Position numbers and translations under genes: made by a program. DNA of 64,000 nucleotides from Saccharothrix sp. S26 (GTDB lineage: Bacteria; Actinomycetota; Actinomycetes; Mycobacteriales; Pseudonocardiaceae): NCBI RefSeq assembly GCF_021390395.1, contig NZ_JAJUWT010000003.1, positions 186,001-250,000 on the forward strand. The letters are read 5' to 3'. Positions 9,713 through 55,330 of this stretch are shown piece by piece. How positions within the stretch are numbered: the stretch's first letter is position 1; each line of letters starts with the position of its first letter. The notes below the pieces were generated by a model. That model ran no database searches. It was not told the DNA's origin and saw only the letters and a program-made list of their open reading frames with translations.

Positions 9713-11085
9713 TCGGTGCCGCCAACGGGCGGCTCCAGCGGGTGTCGCTGCGGGCCAGGGTGACCCTGCTGGCCGCGTTCTGCGTGGCCGGGGCCGTCGC
9801 CGTCGTGTCGCTGGGCGCGTACATGACGGTGAGCCAGAACCTGCACGACCAGATGGACGCCAACCTGAGGCAGCGCGCCGAGGCCGCGGTGAACGCGCCC
9901 AAGGTCAACAACGACGTCACCGAGATCCCCGGCGCGTTCCTCGCGGCGGGCGACATCCGGATCGGCGTGCTGGACGTCAGCGGCCGGATCCTGTACCCGA
10001 AGGGCACGGTCGCGCCGCCGACGCAGCCCGCCGACCTCGACGTGGCGCGCGGCACCCGGCTGGAGAACATCTGGACCGACCTGCGCACCGACTTCCGGGT
10101 GATCGCGGTGCCGTACGGCGACGGCCAGGCCATGGTGATCGCGCAGTCCACCAAGCCGCTCAACGTCACGCTGGGCAAGCTGTCCGTGGTGCTGTTCGTG
10201 ATCAGCGGCATGGGCGTGCTGGTCGCGGCGGCGGCGGGCACGGCCGTGGCGCGGACCGGGCTGCGGCCCGTGCAGCGGTTGACCGAGGCCACCGAACGGG
10301 TCGCGCTGACCGGCGACCTGCGGCCGATCCCGGTGTCCGGTGACGACGAGCTGGCGTTGTTGTCGCAGCGGTTCAACGCGATGCTGGGCGCGGTCGCGGA
10401 GTCGCAGGAGCGGCAGCGGCGGCTGGTCGCCGACGCCGGGCACGAGCTGCGCACGCCGTTGACGTCGATGCGGACGAACCTGGAGCTGCTGCTGGCCTCG
10501 GAGCGGCCGGACGCGCCGACGCTGTCCGACGAGGACAAGGCGGAGATCCACGCCGACGTGCGGGCCCAGCTGGACGAGCTGACCACGTTGATCGGCGACC
10601 TGGTGGAGTTGGCCCGCGAGGACGCGCCGCAGGTCGTGCACGAGCCGGTGGACCTGGTCGAGGTGGTCGAACGCGCCCTGGACCGGGCGAAGCGGCGGGC
10701 GTCCGACGTCGAGTTCCGGGTCGAGCTGCAACCGTGGTCGCTCCTGGGCGACTCCAGCGCGCTGGAACGGGCCGTGCTCAACCTGCTGGACAACGCGGTC
10801 AAGTTCAGCCCGGCGGGTGGCGTGGTGCGGCTCTCGGTGAAGCAGCTGGGCGACGGCAGCGCGGTCGTCGAGGTGGCCGACTCGGGCCCCGGCATCGCCG
10901 ACGCCGACCTGCCGCACGTCTTCGAACGCTTCTACCGCTCCTCCGAAGCGCGCACGCTGCCCGGCTCGGGCCTGGGCCTGGCGATCGTCAAGCAGGTGGC
11001 CGAGCGCCACGGCGGCATGGCCTACGTGGGCCGGGCACCCGAGGGCGGCGCGCTGTTCGCCCTGCGCCTCCCCGGCCGCCCGTGA
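9709..11085 (+). CDS. mprB: Envelope-stress sensor histidine kinase MprB
   Basis: A 458-aa membrane kinase. It has TM1 around residues 15-38, an extracytoplasmic sensor region of about 115 aa, TM2 around 157-181, a HAMP linker ([18 protein letters not shown]), and a HisKA domain with phospho-acceptor H245 in [13 protein letters not shown]. The ATPase domain has the N box [11 protein letters not shown]1 DSGPGIAD, F box HVFERFYRS and G2 [12 protein letters not shown]. It phosphorylates MprA. It starts at GTG 9709 overlapping the mprA stop. In mycobacteria pepD/htrA follows directly, whereas here 8.3 kb of other genes intervene before htrA at 19351. Its TGA stop touches the repeat region that begins at 11084. 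Confidence 0.9.
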
Positions 11086-11221
11086 GTCCTACGTCCAGCG
11101 CGCGAGAGTCCTACGTTCACGACCCCTGAGTTCAACACTCACGACTAACGGCGTACGGCCTGAGCGTTGAACTCGAGGGTTCCGAACGTAGGACTCTCGC
11201 GTTCTGAACGTAGGACTCTCG
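11084..11221. repeat. Nested inverted/direct repeat element between convergent genes
   Basis: A 16-bp motif, CGAGAGTCCTACGTTC (11103-11118), is matched by two perfect inverted copies at 11184-11199 and 11206-11221, spaced 22 bp apart. A partial copy (GAGTCCTACGTC) starts at 11084, overlapping the mprB stop codon. Inside lies a second pair, GAGTTCAAC (about 11128-11136) and GTTGAACTC (11166-11174). The whole could fold into one long nested hairpin on either strand. It fills the gap between mprB and the convergent secreted-protein gene. Likely roles are bidirectional terminator or a mobile intergenic repeat; only the repeats themselves are certain. Confidence 0.8.
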
Positions 11222-19350: not shown

Positions 19351-21216
19351 ATGACCGAAGACGAGCAGCCGAAGCAGCCTCCGCAGTCGCAGCCGCCTCA
19401 GCCGCAGAGCCCGTGGGCGCGTGGGAGCGCCGCCGGGCTGGGTCATGACGACGTCGGCCACCGGCAGCAGGGTGCCGGCCGGTCGGGCGCCGACGACACC
19501 GGCGGCGTGCAGGGCGACGCCGGTGCGTCGGGGGCGGGGTCGGCGGGTGTTCCGCGGGGGAACACCGGCCACCCGGCCGACCTCTACCCGGACAGCGTGA
19601 CGACCACCGCTGCCGGCTCGAACCTCGTCCCGCCGGCCGCCGCCGGCTCTGTGCCCGGGTCGCCGGAAGCGCTGGGGCGCTCCGGTCGCCCGGATGACTT
19701 CGGCTCCGCGTCGGCCCCTCAGGCCGCCGCCGGGTCCGTGCCCGGGTCGTCGGACGCGCAGGGGCGCTCCGGCCACCCGGACGACTTCGGCTCGCCGGCC
19801 GCCTCGCAGGGTGCCGCCGGTCAGTCGGGAACCGGTCAGGCCGGTGCCGTGCAGGGCGGCGCCGGCCCGATCGGAGCAGGTGTGGCCGGTGCTGTGCAGG
19901 GCGGCGCCGGCCAGACCGGGACCGGTGGTTCCGGCGTCGTGCAGGGCGGCGTCGGAACCCCCGGGTCCGGGCCGGGGGCCTGGCAGGGAGGCTTCCACCG
20001 CCCGGAGCACACCGGTCCGTACGGCGCCGCGCAGACCGCCGCCGCGGACCACGCCGGCTCGCCGACCCACTCCCCTTCGGGGTCGGCGCAGCCCGGCGTC
20101 CCCTACTACGCCCCGCCCGGCTCGGTCGCCGCGCCGCCCCGCCCGCCCAAGGGCCGGGGCAAGGTCGTCGCGGGCGTGGCCGCGCTCGTGCTCGCCGTCG
20201 GTGGCGTCGCGGGCGGTGTCGGCGGGTACGTCGGCTTCCAGGCCGCCGAGGAGGCGCGGCCGGTCACCAACGCCCTCGACCAGGCCCCGCCCGCCCAGCA
20301 GAGCGCCGACGCGCCGGCGGGCTCGATCGAGCAGGTGGCCCAGAAGGTGCTGCCGACCGTGGTCCAGGTGCAGGTCAGCGGCGGGGCCGGGTCCGGCTTC
20401 ACGCTCAGCTCCGACGGCCTGGTGCTGACCAACAACCACGTGGTCGAGAGCGCCGCCGCCGGCGGGCCCATCCAGGTCCAGCTCCAGGACGGCCGCTCGT
20501 TCGACGCGAAGATCGTCGGCCGCGACCCCACGTCCGACCTGGCCGTGCTGAAGATGGAGGACGTCTCCGGCCTGCCCGTCGCCGAGCTGGGCAACTCCGG
20601 CGACCTGCGGATCGGCCAGCAGGTCGTGGCCGTCGGCTCGCCGTTCGACCTCAACGGCACGGTCACGTCCGGCATCGTCAGCTCCCTCAACCGCCCGGTG
20701 CGCGCCGGCGGCCAGCAGGGCGGCGAGGACACCGTGCTCAACGCCATCCAGACCGACGCCGCGATCAACCCCGGCAACTCGGGCGGCCCGCTGGTCAACA
20801 TGCGCGGCCAGGTCGTCGGCATCAACTCGGCCATCTACAGCCCGAACTCCGGCCAGGCATCCCAGGGCGGCTCGGTCGGCATCGGCTTCGCCATCCCGAT
20901 CGACCAGGCCCGCCGCACGGCCAAGGAGCTGTCGGAGACCGGCAAGGCGAACCAGACCGTGCTGGGCGTCCAGGTCACCAACGCGCCCCAGGGCGGCGCG
21001 CTGATCCGCAACGTCACCGGCGGCGGCGCGGCCGAGGCCGCGGGCGTCAAGGTCGGCGACGTGATCACCAAGTTCGGCGACCGGCCCATCGACACCTCCG
21101 ACGCCCTGGTGGCCGCCGTCCGCTCCCGCGCGCCGGGCGACAAGGTGCGGCTCACCATCGGCGAGGACCGCACGGTCGAGGTGACGCTCGGCAGCCAGCC
21201 CGTCGAGGTCCGCTAG
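19351..21216 (+). CDS. Membrane-anchored HtrA/DegP-like serine protease (PepD type)
   Basis: A 621-aa protein. Residues 1-270 are a cytoplasmic, Gly/Ala/Pro/Gln-rich low-complexity stretch with imperfect repeats (AAGSVPGS, GAVQGGAG). One membrane helix follows at about 272-295. The trypsin-like domain has H363 (NNHVVES), D396 (PTSDLAVLK) and S477 (NPGNSGGPL), and ends in a PDZ domain (VLGVQVTNAPQGGALIRNVTGGGAAEAAGVKVGDVITKFGDRP). It degrades or refolds damaged proteins outside the membrane. ATG 19351 is used; GTG 19342 is possible. It corresponds to mycobacterial pepD beside mprAB. The disordered N-terminal arm is much longer than usual. Confidence 0.9.
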   Translation: MTEDEQPKQPPQSQPPQPQSPWARGSAAGLGHDDVGHRQQGAGRSGADDTGGVQGDAGASGAGSAGVPRGNTGHPADLYPDSVTTTAAGSNLVPPAAAGSVPGSPEALGRSGRPDDFGSASAPQAAAGSVPGSSDAQGRSGHPDDFGSPAASQGAAGQSGTGQAGAVQGGAGPIGAGVAGAVQGGAGQTGTGGSGVVQGGVGTPGSGPGAWQGGFHRPEHTGPYGAAQTAAADHAGSPTHSPSGSAQPGVPYYAPPGSVAAPPRPPKGRGKVVAGVAALVLAVGGVAGGVGGYVGFQAAEEARPVTNALDQAPPAQQSADAPAGSIEQVAQKVLPTVVQVQVSGGAGSGFTLSSDGLVLTNNHVVESAAAGGPIQVQLQDGRSFDAKIVGRDPTSDLAVLKMEDVSGLPVAELGNSGDLRIGQQVVAVGSPFDLNGTVTSGIVSSLNRPVRAGGQQGGEDTVLNAIQTDAAINPGNSGGPLVNMRGQVVGINSAIYSPNSGQASQGGSVGIGFAIPIDQARRTAKELSETGKANQTVLGVQVTNAPQGGALIRNVTGGGAAEAAGVKVGDVITKFGDRPIDTSDALVAAVRSRAPGDKVRLTIGEDRTVEVTLGSQPVEVR

Positions 21217-29315: not shown

Positions 29316-29500
29316 CCGAACCGGCTGACGACGCCGCCGCTCCCGCCTCCGCCTCGGCCGCGGAGGAGGCGGCGCGGCGTCGTCGGCTGGCGGAGGTGTT
29401 CGGCGACGTGCTGCCGGAGTCCTCGTCGGACGACCCGCGCCCGACCGGCCGCGACGACCGGTGGTACGAGGAGAACCGCCCACCGCACCACGGCGGCTGA
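29312..29500 (+). CDS. Small conserved acidic protein of unknown function
   Basis: A 62-aa protein, coupled to moaB2 by an ATGA overlap. The N-terminal half is Ala/Glu/Arg-rich helix (AAEEAARRRRLAEVFGDVLPESSSDD), and it ends in DRWYEENRPPHHGG. I recall similar small proteins downstream of moaB-type genes in actinomycetes, but the function is unknown. The C-terminal W-Y-x-x-N-R-P-P-H-H motif is the notable feature. Confidence 0.72.
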   Translation: MTEPADDAAAPASASAAEEAARRRRLAEVFGDVLPESSSDDPRPTGRDDRWYEENRPPHHGG

Positions 29501-29513
29501 CCGCGGGCGTCGT

Positions 29514-29529
29514 GCCCGGGTGACCGGGC
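29514..29529. terminator. Short hairpin between convergent small gene and mscL
   Basis: GCCCGG / CCGGGC around a GTGA loop lies in the 74-nt gap between the moaB2 operon and mscL. It is a modest stem; terminator function is inferred from the convergent setting. Confidence 0.4.
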
Positions 29530-29574
29530 TCTGCCGACCAGGCCCGGCCACCTCCGCCGTCCGTTGGCCGCGGG

Positions 29575-29976
29575 TCAGTCCTGGCGCTGGCGCTGCTGTG
29601 CGGCGAGCAGGTCGCGGATCTCCTTGAGCAGCTCGACGTCGGTGGGCTCGGCGGGACCGGGCTCCTGGCCGCGCTTGCGGCGCTCCTTCAGCTTGTTCAT
29701 CGGCAGCACGAAGATGAAGTAGACGATCGCGGCCACGATCAGGAAGTTGATCACCGCCGTGATGATCGCGCCGAAGTCCACGACGGTCTTGTCGCTGCTG
29801 CCGAGCTGCACGGCCAGGCCGTTGACGTTGTTGCCGCCGAACAACGCGATGATCGGGTTGATCAGGTTCGTGGTGAACGCGGTGACGATGGCCGTGAACG
29901 CCGCACCGATCACGACCGCCACCGCGAGATCGATCACGTTGCCGCGCATGAGGAAGTCCTTGAAGCCCTTGATCAC
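29575..29976 (-). CDS. mscL: Large-conductance mechanosensitive channel MscL
   Basis: A 133-aa channel: IKGFKDFLMRGNVIDLAVAVVIGAAFTAIVTAFTTNLI (amphipathic N-helix and pore TM1), TM2 AIITAVINFLIVAAIVYFIFVLPMN, and a charged C-terminal helix bundle (KLKERRKRG ... DVELLKEIRDLLAAQ). It forms a pentamer that opens under membrane tension during osmotic downshock. GGAGG lies 8 nt before the GTG at 29976; the open frame upstream runs through the octamer repeats and is spurious. The long region upstream holds a 15-bp hairpin and the repeat array. Confidence 0.95.
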   Translation of the reverse strand: MIKGFKDFLMRGNVIDLAVAVVIGAAFTAIVTAFTTNLINPIIALFGGNNVNGLAVQLGSSDKTVVDFGAIITAVINFLIVAAIVYFIFVLPMNKLKERRKRGQEPGPAEPTDVELLKEIRDLLAAQQRQRQD

Positions 29977-30005
29977 GTCCGGCTCCTCCGTTCGGGGGTA
30001 TTTAG

Positions 30006-30042
30006 GTGGGGGCGGAGCGGAGGGTAACCGCTCCGCGCCCAC
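30006..30042. promoter_or_regulatory. 15-bp hairpin upstream of mscL
   Basis: A stem of 15 bp with one mismatch (arms 30006-30020 and 30028-30042, core CGGAGCGG / CCGCTCCG) and loop AGGGTAA begins 30 nt before the mscL start. It may end transcripts coming from the right or act in the mscL leader. The stretch 30043-30394 shows no gene or other structure that I can support. Confidence 0.5.
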
Positions 30043-30394
30043 CCGGTGACGCTCCGGGTACGTGTGTCGCGCCCACCACCCAGCCCAACCCCTCCGCCGG
30101 CCCCCGAAAACCCGCAAATCCCTGCCACCTGGCAGCGGGCCCTCATCCGCCCGCTGGTGCTGTGCGGTCTGTGATGACCTGGCAGGGCCGCATCGGCTGT
30201 GCGGGGTCCGGCTCGCAGCGGCTCCCCATCCGGGGTCCAAGGCCGGCCTCTGCGGGTTGCCGCTTGCGGTTGGCGGCTGCCGGGGCCCTGGACCTGCGAC
30301 GAGCTGACCGCAGGGCTTGCGGACCGGCAGGGCCGCGGGTGCGAGGGCTGGAGGTTGCTGGATCGCCGGTGGGGCCGCAGAGCGGCAGGCTCCA

Positions 30395-31042
30395 CACCGC
30401 CGGACCGCCGCACCGCCGCACCGCCGGACCGCCGGACCGCCGGACCGCCGGACCGCCGGACCGCCGGACCGCCGGACCGCCGGACCGCCGGACCGCCGGA
30501 CCGCCGCACCGCCGCACCGCCGCACCGCCGCACCGCCGCACTGCCGGACTGCCGGACTGCCGGACTGCCGGACTGCCGGACCGCCGGACCGCCGGACCGC
30601 CGGACCGCCGGACCGCCGGACTGCCGCACCGCCGGACCGCCGGACTGCCGGACCGCCGCATTGCCGGACCGCCGGACCGCCGGACCGCCGAACTGTCGGA
30701 CCGTCGCATTGCCGCGCTGCCGCATTGCCGGGCCGCCGGGCTGCCGCATTGCCGCATTGCCGGGCTGCCGGACCGCCGGACTACCGGACCGCCGGGTTGC
30801 CGCATTGCCGCATTGCCGGGTCGCCGGGTCGCCGGACTGCCGGGTCGCCGCATTGCCGGACCGCCGGGCTGCCGGGCTGCCGGGCTGCCGCATTGCCGCA
30901 TTGCCGCATTGCCGGACTGCCGGATCGCCGGACTGCCGGGTCGCCGCATTGCCGGATCGCCGGACCGCCGGGCTGCCGCATTGCCGGACCGCCGGACTAC
31001 CGGACTGCCGCATTGCCGGACTGCCGCACCGCCGGGTTGCCG
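30395..31042. repeat. Array of 81 in-phase degenerate 8-bp tandem repeats
   Basis: 648 nt consist of 81 contiguous octamers, with the phase holding at every point checked along the array and no indel found. The consensus is [C/G][A/G][C/T][C/T]GCCG. Common units are GACCGCCG, CACCGCCG, GACTGCCG, CATTGCCG, GGCTGCCG and GGTCGCCG. The left half is mostly GACCGCCG runs; the right half is more mixed. GCCG is nearly constant, with rare GTCG or ACCG. After 31042 the pattern shifts phase and decays. Because 8 is not a multiple of 3, several frames on both strands stay open and give spurious Arg/Pro- or Gly/Ser-rich proteins. It lies in a 1.2-kb gap between mscL and the SAF-domain gene. Confidence 0.95.
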
Positions 31043-31184
31043 GGTGGGCGGTTGCCGGACTGCCGGGCGGGCGGGTCGCGGGGTTGACGGGTCGAGGTCG
31101 GTTGGCTGCTGAACGGCGGTTGTGGGTCGGGTGTCCGGTGGGGGTGCGCGGGGTGCAGGGCGGCAGGCGGCCGGGGGGTGAGGG

Positions 31185-31694
31185 TCAGCGCAGGATCACG
31201 GCCACCGGGCCGGCCAGGGTTTCGGCGGCCAGGCGGTGGGCGGCGGCACGGTCGGTGGAGAGGACGACCACCTCGCTGGCACGCACGGCCGTCACCGAGG
31301 CGTCCGCGGCCAGCACGGTCGACTCCGCGCCCACGACGTCCACCCGGCTGCCCGGTCGCAGCAGCCCGACCACGCCGGCGTCCGACAGGCGCACGGCCAC
31401 CGAGGCGACAGCCGGGTCCACCGGCCCCAGGCGGGCGTCGGTCAGCGGTTCGCCGGAACGGGCCGCGCTCACCAACACCCGGCCTAACGCGTCACGCTGC
31501 GACACCGCCCCGGCTGGGGACAACGACGGCGGCACGGGCACGACGCGGACGTCGGCCGCACCCAGTGGCACGCCGGGGGCCAGGTCGTGCGCGGCCACCA
31601 CGAGGTCGACCGTCGGGTCGGCCGGCAGCACGGCCACACCCACGGCGACCAGCGCCAACAGGCCCGCGAGGATCCTTCTGAGGTGGAGGAGCAC
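31185..31694 (-). CDS. SAF-domain protein (CpaB/RcpC-like)
   Basis: A 169-aa protein with an N-terminal membrane anchor (ILAGLLALVAVGVAVLP) followed by a SAF domain: VVAAHDLAPGVPLGAADVRVVPVPPS and ALGRVLVSAARSGEPLTDARLG. The second half, RLSDAGVVGLLRPGSRVDVVGAE, matches the CpaB/RcpC core of Flp-pilus assembly proteins. Stand-alone copies are common in actinomycetes without a full tad cluster, as here, so a pilus role is not assured. It starts at GTG 31694. A pair of DnaA-box matches lies 53-80 nt upstream. Confidence 0.82.
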   Translation of the reverse strand: MLLHLRRILAGLLALVAVGVAVLPADPTVDLVVAAHDLAPGVPLGAADVRVVPVPPSLSPAGAVSQRDALGRVLVSAARSGEPLTDARLGPVDPAVASVAVRLSDAGVVGLLRPGSRVDVVGAESTVLAADASVTAVRASEVVVLSTDRAAAHRLAAETLAGPVAVILR

Positions 31695-31746
31695 GGGTCC
31701 GACGCTAGGGACGGCGGTCGCGTCGGGCCAGCGGGAACCCCCGAGC

Positions 31747-31774
31747 TGTGGACAACTCGGGGGCCTGTGGACAA
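31747..31774 (-). promoter_or_regulatory. Two perfect DnaA-box matches 19 bp apart
   Basis: TGTGGACAA (inverse TTGTCCACA, the actinobacterial DnaA consensus) occurs at 31747-31755 and 31766-31774, in the 87-nt gap between the FmdB-like gene and the SAF gene. A third exact copy lies at 32298-32306 inside fthC. All three have the same orientation. DnaA binding is inferred. Confidence 0.5.
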
Positions 31775-31781
31775 CTTCCGA

Positions 31782-32072
31782 TCAGGACGCGGCGGCGGCC
31801 GGTGCGCTGGAGGTCGAGGACGACGTGCTCGACTCCGACTTGGACGTCGAAGACGCCGGAGCAGTCGAAGAAGAAGCGGTCGAAGAGGACGACGACGAGC
31901 GGCTGTCGGTCCGGTAGAACCCGCTGCCCTTGAACACGACACCGACCGCGCCGTACAGCTTGCGCAGCTTGCCGGAGCACTGCGGGCACTCGGTCAACGC
32001 GGAGTCCGAGAAGGACTGCACCGCTTCGAACCGGTGGTCGCACTCGGTGCAGGCGTACTGGTAGGTCGGCAC
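31782..32072 (-). CDS. FmdB-family zinc-ribbon protein with Ser-rich tail
   Basis: A 96-aa protein. The first 40 residues are the FmdB zinc ribbon (PTYQYACTECDHRFEAVQSFSD, LTECPQCSGKLRKLYG) with two CxxC pairs. GVVFKGSGFYRTD follows, then a long Ser/Thr/Ala tail. The mycobacterial counterpart at the same map place, Rv0991c, has been linked to the Hsp70 system; that link is recalled, not shown here. GGAGGG lies 7 nt before the GTG at 32072. It is downstream of fthC on the same strand. Confidence 0.87.
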   Translation of the reverse strand: MPTYQYACTECDHRFEAVQSFSDSALTECPQCSGKLRKLYGAVGVVFKGSGFYRTDSRSSSSSSTASSSTAPASSTSKSESSTSSSTSSAPAAAAS

Positions 32073-36509: not shown

Positions 36510-36582
36510 GGGGCTGTAGCGCAGTTGGTAGCGCGACTCGTTCGCATCGAGTAGGTCAGGGGTTCGATTCCCCTCAGCTCCA
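36510..36582 (+). tRNA. tRNA-Ala(CGC)
   Basis: A 73-nt cloverleaf without encoded CCA. The acceptor stem GGGGCTG pairs with CAGCTCC and contains the G3:U70 pair that marks tRNA-Ala. The D arm is GTAGCGCAGTTGGTAGCGC. The anticodon loop is TTCGCAT with anticodon CGC, reading GCG. The T loop is GGTTCGATTCC. It lies between the sepX terminator and its own strong hairpin. I looked for a copied 3' end that would mark integration and saw none. Confidence 0.96.
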
Positions 36583-54589: not shown

Positions 54590-55330
54590 GAACCACCCAC
54601 CCACCACCCACAAGCCACCCCGCCCGCCGACCTGCCGCCCGCCGACCTGCCGCCCGCTGCCTGCCCGCTCGCCGACCACCCACCCGCCGACCCACCACCC
54701 GCCGACCTGCCGACCACCGACCACCCACCGACCACCCACCGACCGCCCACCACCGCCCGCCGACCACCGACCGCCCGCCAACCACCCGCCGCTGACTGCC
54801 CACCCTCCGACCCGCGGCCGCCGCCCGCTCATCCGCCACCCGTCAATCCGCCCACCGCTGCCTGCCCGCTCGCCGGGTCTCTGCCCGCCTGCCGCACCCT
54901 CGCCCGCCCGACCGACCACCTGCCTGCGACCCGCCCCGCGCCTGCCCGCCGCCTGTCTGCCGCGCGCCGGCGCGTGCCCCGCCTGTCCGCGCACTTGCCC
55001 GGCCGCCGACCTGTCCGCCGCGCCCTGCCCCCACGTGCCTGCCGCGCACCCGCCGAGCCTTCGACCGCCTGCCAGCCGCGCCGAACGCCAGTCGCGCCGA
55101 ACGCCAGCGCGCGGTCAGCCGGTCGCGCCCGCACGCCGATCGTCCGCCGATCGCTAGTCCGCCGCGCCCTCGCCTGCCGCGTTCCCGCCTGCCGCGCGGC
55201 CAGGTCGTCGCGCGCCCGCCCCGTCAGCCGATCGGCCCGCGTAACGCCACCCCCGCGCAACGTCAGCGCGCCCGCGCGCCCGGCTATGACCACGCGGGAA
55301 GCAAGCGTTTGCGCGGGCGCGAATTGGACT
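54590..55330. repeat. C-rich low-complexity region without supported gene
   Basis: The 968-nt gap between the split helicase and the protease gene is dominated by irregular runs of CCGCCCGCC, GACCACC and CTGCC on the plus strand (for example CCGACCTGCCGCCCG near 54630 and ACCACCGACC-like units near 54710-54780). Codon pattern is lost, and the Pro/Ala-rich and Gly/Arg-rich frames on both strands look spurious. A small hairpin (CCTCG GTTAAAT CGAGG, 54566-54582) precedes it. Confidence 0.7.

Follow-up and report, generated by a model that had tools for sequence, protein, structure and literature searches.

In the window (the whole stretch of 64,000 nucleotides from Saccharothrix sp. S26 analyzed here), a gap between two genes holds a long run of octamers whose units differ as if they spelled out a code. 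Is this array a functional DNA element, or a repeat that grew by duplication and then decayed? By far the most probable answer, from a comparison of one genome per species, is an effectively neutral, lineage-specific 8-bp minisatellite of the VNTR type.

Structure and Borders of the Array

The preliminary description reported 81 phased octamers at 30395–31042 with an almost fixed GCCG, which was confirmed. Fourteen unit types are present: GACCGCCG is the commonest (26 units), followed by CATTGCCG (14), GACTGCCG (11) and CACCGCCG (9), and ten other types make up the remaining units. Over the 81 units, position 1 is G in 55, C in 25 and A in one; position 2 is A (67) or G (14), position 3 is C (59) or T (22), and position 4 is C (43) or T (38). 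At position 5, G is found in 79 units and A in two; at position 6, C in 79 and T in two; positions 7 and 8 read CG in all 81. The variation of positions 1–4 had been called a binary-like code. These positions do vary, but the term is loose: the combinations are used unequally, with CATT in 14 units, CATC and GATT in none.

The units stand head-to-tail at a constant period, as in minisatellites. TRF assigned the array a score of 580 (period 8, 80 copies, 0% indels), the second-highest tandem-repeat score in the 400 kb examined of the 459-kb contig, after a 264-bp repeat with a score of 998. The array had also been described as free of indels. This holds inside 30395–31042, because the border drawn there stops before the first indel; it does not hold for the decayed tail. 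Profile decoding spans 30392–31094, and a 1-base deletion near 31052 is the single indel in the whole decoded region. The 14 unit types need at least 13 substitutions, and in bacteria substitutions outnumber indels about tenfold, so that one or two indels are expected where one is seen.

A homogeneous left half and a mixed right half were noticed at the outset, and the difference is measurable. Units 1–37 have an entropy of 1.65 bits, and identical units are neighbors 22 times (shuffle mean 13.7, p = 0.0008); ten identical units stand in a row (units 5–14). In units 38–81, the entropy is 3.17 bits, and identical neighbors occur seven times (shuffle mean 5.6, p = 0.31). The array matches itself in blastn at 83% with an offset of ~96–103. 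A higher-order repeat near 12 units was considered and rejected, the lag tests being nonsignificant (p = 0.58 and 0.47). Neither strand contains a G-quadruplex motif, defined as four GGG runs.

Table 1. Features of the array, its gap and the bordering genes (positions in the window).
Feature	Position	Strand	Evidence
mscL, large-conductance mechanosensitive channel, start as called	29575–29976	-	Pfam MscL, 1.2e-39 (domain match given at 29575–29979)
Leader just upstream of mscL, best-conserved part of the gap	29977–30081		DNA matches in relatives
Probable C-terminal remnant of an ECF-type sigma factor gene	30044–30070	-	9/9 residues equal to residues 302–310 of the G001 protein
Poorly conserved spacer	30082–30394		Longer weak alignments to G022 and G002 only
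Homogeneous left part of the array, units 1–37, 5 unit types	30395–30690	+	
Mixed right part of the array, units 38–81, 13 unit types	30691–31042	+	
Decayed tail of the array, 1-base deletion near 31052	31043–31094	+	Profile decoding; lower-threshold TRF, 7.9 poorer copies at 31031–31092
SAF-domain (RcpC/CpaB-like) gene across the gap	31185–31694	-	Pfam SAF, 4.8e-9; RcpC, 5e-5, below its cut-off

The Gap and Its Origin

The gap between mscL and the SAF-domain gene is 1208 bp long and contains zero called genes (codon-usage caller trained on the contig of the window); the array fills about half of it. Both bordering genes are on the minus strand, which places the array between codirectional genes. 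Matches to mscL were found in 55 of the 60 genomes searched. Among the first 45 of 80 loci, galU, 5-FTHF cyclo-ligase, the zinc-ribbon gene and mscL have homologues in every one, and the SAF gene has one in 43. Within this set, SAF and mscL are 3 to ~80 bp apart in Lentzea, Umezawaea and most Amycolatopsis, as counted between the ends of the tblastn matches, not of the genes. CRISPR arrays consist of repeats of ~23–47 bp with unique spacers and are accompanied by cas genes; here, the 8-bp units have no spacers, and no cas family match was obtained among the six neighboring genes scanned. At gathering thresholds, Rfam identified nothing in the window but a tRNA at 36510–36582. A scan for sigma-70-type promoters gave no match, a scan that is uninformative at such a GC content.

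Seven relatives (G001, G003, G005, G010, G013, G015 and G017) have two genes in this gap, one for a sigma factor and one for a glyoxalase-family protein; only the second is present in G023. Pfam was run on the gene pair of G001 only, where the sigma protein shows the domains Sigma70_r2, Sigma70_r4_2 and SnoaL_2. The last codons of such a sigma gene seem to survive, close to where they would be expected, in the window (9/9 residues, E = 0.07) and in G022 (11/12, E = 0.007), matches that are weak when taken alone; the window's is read as a remnant because it sits inside an 88% DNA match to G001. Searched with the G001 sigma factor, the S26 genome gives a best match of 53% identity on another contig, so the gene seems more likely to have been lost than moved. 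The gap would then probably be the scar of a gene loss, at a place where two genes once stood.

The Same Gap in Related Genomes

The orthologous gap was compared in 24 relatives of the genus Saccharothrix; all genome sets contained one genome per species. Its length ranges from 76 to 2448 bp, and it holds repeats of other units (e.g., 17, 27, 29 and 58 bp), extra genes or neither. Not one four-unit match to SRYYGCCG was found in the gap among these 24 genomes. Random decay with indels in every relative, named at the outset as a refuting outcome, presupposes an array of these units at this place; the only such decay seen, with its indel, is at the right edge of the array in the window. The content turns over quickly and is not conserved in place, as is the rule for minisatellites.

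Conservation of the gap is mainly found in the first 90–100 bp beside mscL, well short of the array. The 415-bp left flank is matched at E ≤ 0.001 by 17 of the 25 genus genomes, S26 included, and the matches fall within bases 1–102, apart from that of S26 itself and one second match in G008. The leader is ~76–88% identical over 70–103 bases in 12 relatives, with shorter or no matches in the others. Two alignments starting at mscL reach farther: 67% over 291 bases in G022, the most similar relative at this place, and 62% over 268 bases in G002. The right flank is partially matched in G022, too (76% over 63). Its gap therefore has related flanks, and the array is absent.

G006 and G008 also have octamer arrays in their mscL gaps, built of different letters around a GCCG or ACCG core, and 3.4 copies of another octamer are present in the G004 gap. 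The G006 and G008 arrays may share descent with the one in the window or may be repeated births; both are possible. In comparison, the period is 8 in one of 121 tandem repeats of other gaps.

Tandem repeats are common between genes of these organisms. In the 24 relatives, they cover 8.9% of the bases of other gaps and 13.0% of the mscL gap, a figure that counts the extra genes in. On the contig of the window, they make up 10.8% of gap bases (array included) and 1.3% of the bases in coding sequence. Their share is 2.0% in divergent, promoter-bearing gaps, 9.5% in codirectional (array included) and 15.7% in convergent ones. This is read here as a sign that repeats are tolerated where no promoter is close by; SRYYGCCG arrays lean further toward convergent gaps than this reading accounts for.

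Similar Arrays in the Family

A search for SRYYGCCG arrays in related genomes, which had been proposed as a check, found six-unit arrays in 30 of 390 family genomes (S26 included), against 10 of 390 for the backward control. With units that read the same backwards excluded (G002 and G155 off both sides), the counts are 28 vs. 8 (p = 0.0006); when the control hits of G049 and G359 are also dropped, they are 28 vs. 6 (p = 0.0001). In the S26 genome, even the three-unit pattern occurs at one place, the array of the window.

In total, 38 distinct loci were considered: 30 six-unit (one locus per genome) and 8 four-unit ones, six duplicates being dropped; G071, G083 and G084 lie outside the family. 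All loci but one (37/38) are outside called genes, the exception being L199/L214; a flank is uncalled in L205, L207, L219, L009 and L231. The 32 loci with both flanks called comprise 20 convergent, 9 codirectional (the window's included) and 3 divergent ones. For general repeats, ~30% convergent would be expected (p = 0.00014), a value derived by arithmetic from the repeat-base shares of gaps in Saccharothrix only, with our own gene caller. The excess persists when orthologous pairs are counted once (17/29, p = 0.0013) and in the six-unit search alone (15/25, p = 0.0018). The control arrays, opened in 8 of the 10 control-match genomes, are convergent in three cases, codirectional in three and divergent in two; those of G049 and G359 coincide with forward loci, which leaves too few for a comparison.

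At some places, arrays recur in more than one species. One shared site has CATC x20 in one genome and CATC x5 plus CACC x1 in the other; at another, two species have CACC x11 and x32, and a third has GGTT x7 adjacent to the same gene. A further pair, GGTT x24 vs. GGTC x8, is joined by one shared flanking gene only: L193 (G012) carries 24 copies of GGTTGCCG at 9909–10100, and L195 (G004) eight copies of GGTCGCCG at 9875–9938. Both adjoin an Imm1-family immunity gene whose products are 98.6% identical, their other flanking genes being unmatched. This suggests that the unit may have been replaced at a kept site, as judged from the one gene shared. A general neighbor gene of the arrays was not found among the 69 flanking proteins. 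Their matches form the orthologous groups G012/G004 (one gene), G189/G201/G224 and G214/G219 (two genes), besides two weak ones of 24–33% identity.

Weighing the Explanations

A protein-binding array, a nucleoid anchor, or a replication or recombination site had been suggested as possible roles. If the repeat were functional, as a binding site for a protein, a roadblock or terminator of transcription, or a nucleoid anchor, it would offer GCCG for contact, the other four bases being a free linker, in line with a kept core beside four variable positions. The 30 family genomes with like arrays, mostly convergent where both flanks were called, the three sites with arrays in more than one species, differing in units or copy numbers, and the other octamers of G006 and G008 point the same way. 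However, S26 has a single such site, an exact six-unit array is missing from 360 of the 390 family genomes, and the orthologous gap of G022 lacks it. An array of the same motif kept at this site was not seen in the 24 same-genus genomes, and the gap content varies between species. No terminator-like site was detected at 29500–31800; the plus strand folds less stably than 20 shuffles (z = 5.56), and the minus strand like shuffles (z = -0.61). General tandem repeats favor convergent gaps as well, though more weakly. A functional array is consequently judged improbable, and the roles first suggested are not supported by these sequence comparisons. A broader version also earns little credence: GCCG-RRYY octamers could be a recurrent class in Pseudonocardiaceae that seeds arrays preferentially between convergent genes and acts there as a two-way roadblock to transcription, with units being replaced while arrays persist, and the window's array would then be displaced or decaying. 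Palindromic REP/BIME-type elements were likewise rejected: these occur as dispersed copies with stable hairpins, and the array is a single locus with no added fold stability on either strand.

The remaining explanations are less likely still. In favor of a coding repeat with a TAGPPDRR-like peptide, either strand has open frames that run across the array, but stop-free units alone predict them, 8 is not a multiple of 3, the codon-usage caller finds zero genes there, and Pfam gave no match in the one frame scanned, the long plus-strand frame 30199–31917; such a repeat is barely conceivable. An assembly artefact, with the repeat collapsed, expanded or chimeric, would be in keeping with a draft of 54 contigs and with ten identical units in a row, hard for short reads. 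The right half is anchored by its many distinct variants, though, and one-contig genomes also hold octamer arrays (e.g., G012, 24 identical units), which makes an artefact quite unlikely, even if the copy number of the left part may be wrong in the assembly. The variants had also been tentatively attributed to methylation-driven C-to-T change. C4pG5 indeed reads TG in 36 and TA in two of the 81 units (CG in 43). C7pG8, on the contrary, is an intact CpG in 81/81 units, including 54 CCGG sites, and position 3 varies between C and T without a following G; this attribution is not upheld, and such a code is hardly credible.

For the neutral minisatellite, growth would have proceeded by repeated duplication of whole units, through slipped-strand synthesis or unequal recombination, and substitutions would then have diversified the units. 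Phase is kept though the units differ, as first observed, because duplication would copy whole units. The proposed expansion from the left fits: the left part has probably expanded recently, and the right end would be old and decaying, with units broken by the indel remaining at its edge. The scattered, unclustered CATT units of the right half are not explained by whole-unit duplication alone; they may stem from exchange between units that lie far apart in the array. Four observations count against this minisatellite: the recurrence of SRYYGCCG arrays over the backward control; the GCCG/ACCG octamers in the gap of G006 and G008 and another octamer in that of G004, unpredicted by independent neutral birth; the convergent excess of arrays; and a right half with neither clustering of identical units nor a significant lag, unlike simple local duplication.

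Comparison with Known Repeats

The array is new in its letters and place, and its kind is already known: an ordinary minisatellite. Among the literature matches listed, no paper deals with it. Like bacterial VNTR and minisatellite loci, it consists of short head-to-tail units outside genes, has homogeneous and decayed zones and lies in a gap whose content differs between species, although 81 many-variant units seem, in our judgement, long for an octamer. The mycobacterial MPTR and PGRS repeats are also GC-rich, short, actinobacterial and GCCG/CGGC-like in letters. They lie inside PE/PPE coding sequences, whereas no coding signal was found in the array.

Tandem octanucleotides are described in Geobacter metallireducens: four octamers per site (consensus GTTGCTYN, 48-sequence alignment), predicted as regulator sites (PMC2700814), compared with one site of ~81 units in the window. 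Borg tandem repeats evolve fast, are said to arise independently and are in some cases intergenic; their units are described as perfect, without SNPs, and A-enriched (PMC9879509), in contrast to the GC-rich, many-variant units described here.

Other Repeats in the Window

Short arrays of a 22-bp repeat family with the core CCTACGTTC, in forward and inverted orientation, lie at 11079–11145 and 11179–11221, and others elsewhere on the contig. In 400 kb of the contig, 19 + 22 copies of the core were counted, 41/41 outside called genes; the word read backwards occurs zero times on either strand. Eight of its 12 loci are convergent (convergent gene pairs overall there, 66/377). The core was not found in the 20 kb around mscL of the 24 relatives. 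The 18-mer TCCTACGTTCAGAACGCG is present in 9 of 25 genus genomes, with 81 copies in S26. The family appears to be a dispersed hairpin element located at the ends of genes. Moreover, a GC-rich ~15/45-bp tandem repeat of the CCGCCCGCCGACC type lies at 54619–54791 (best TRF score 164), and adjoining repeats of 87-bp and 45-bp units at 19629–19955 (scores 265 and 154).

Implications

The lesson of the array is mostly one of caution: a striking "code" in a gap is explained by the growth of whole-unit repeats and their decay. The array is a possible marker for strain typing. Should arrays favor convergent genes for a functional reason, this would hint at an unrecognized way of ending transcription in high-GC actinomycetes.
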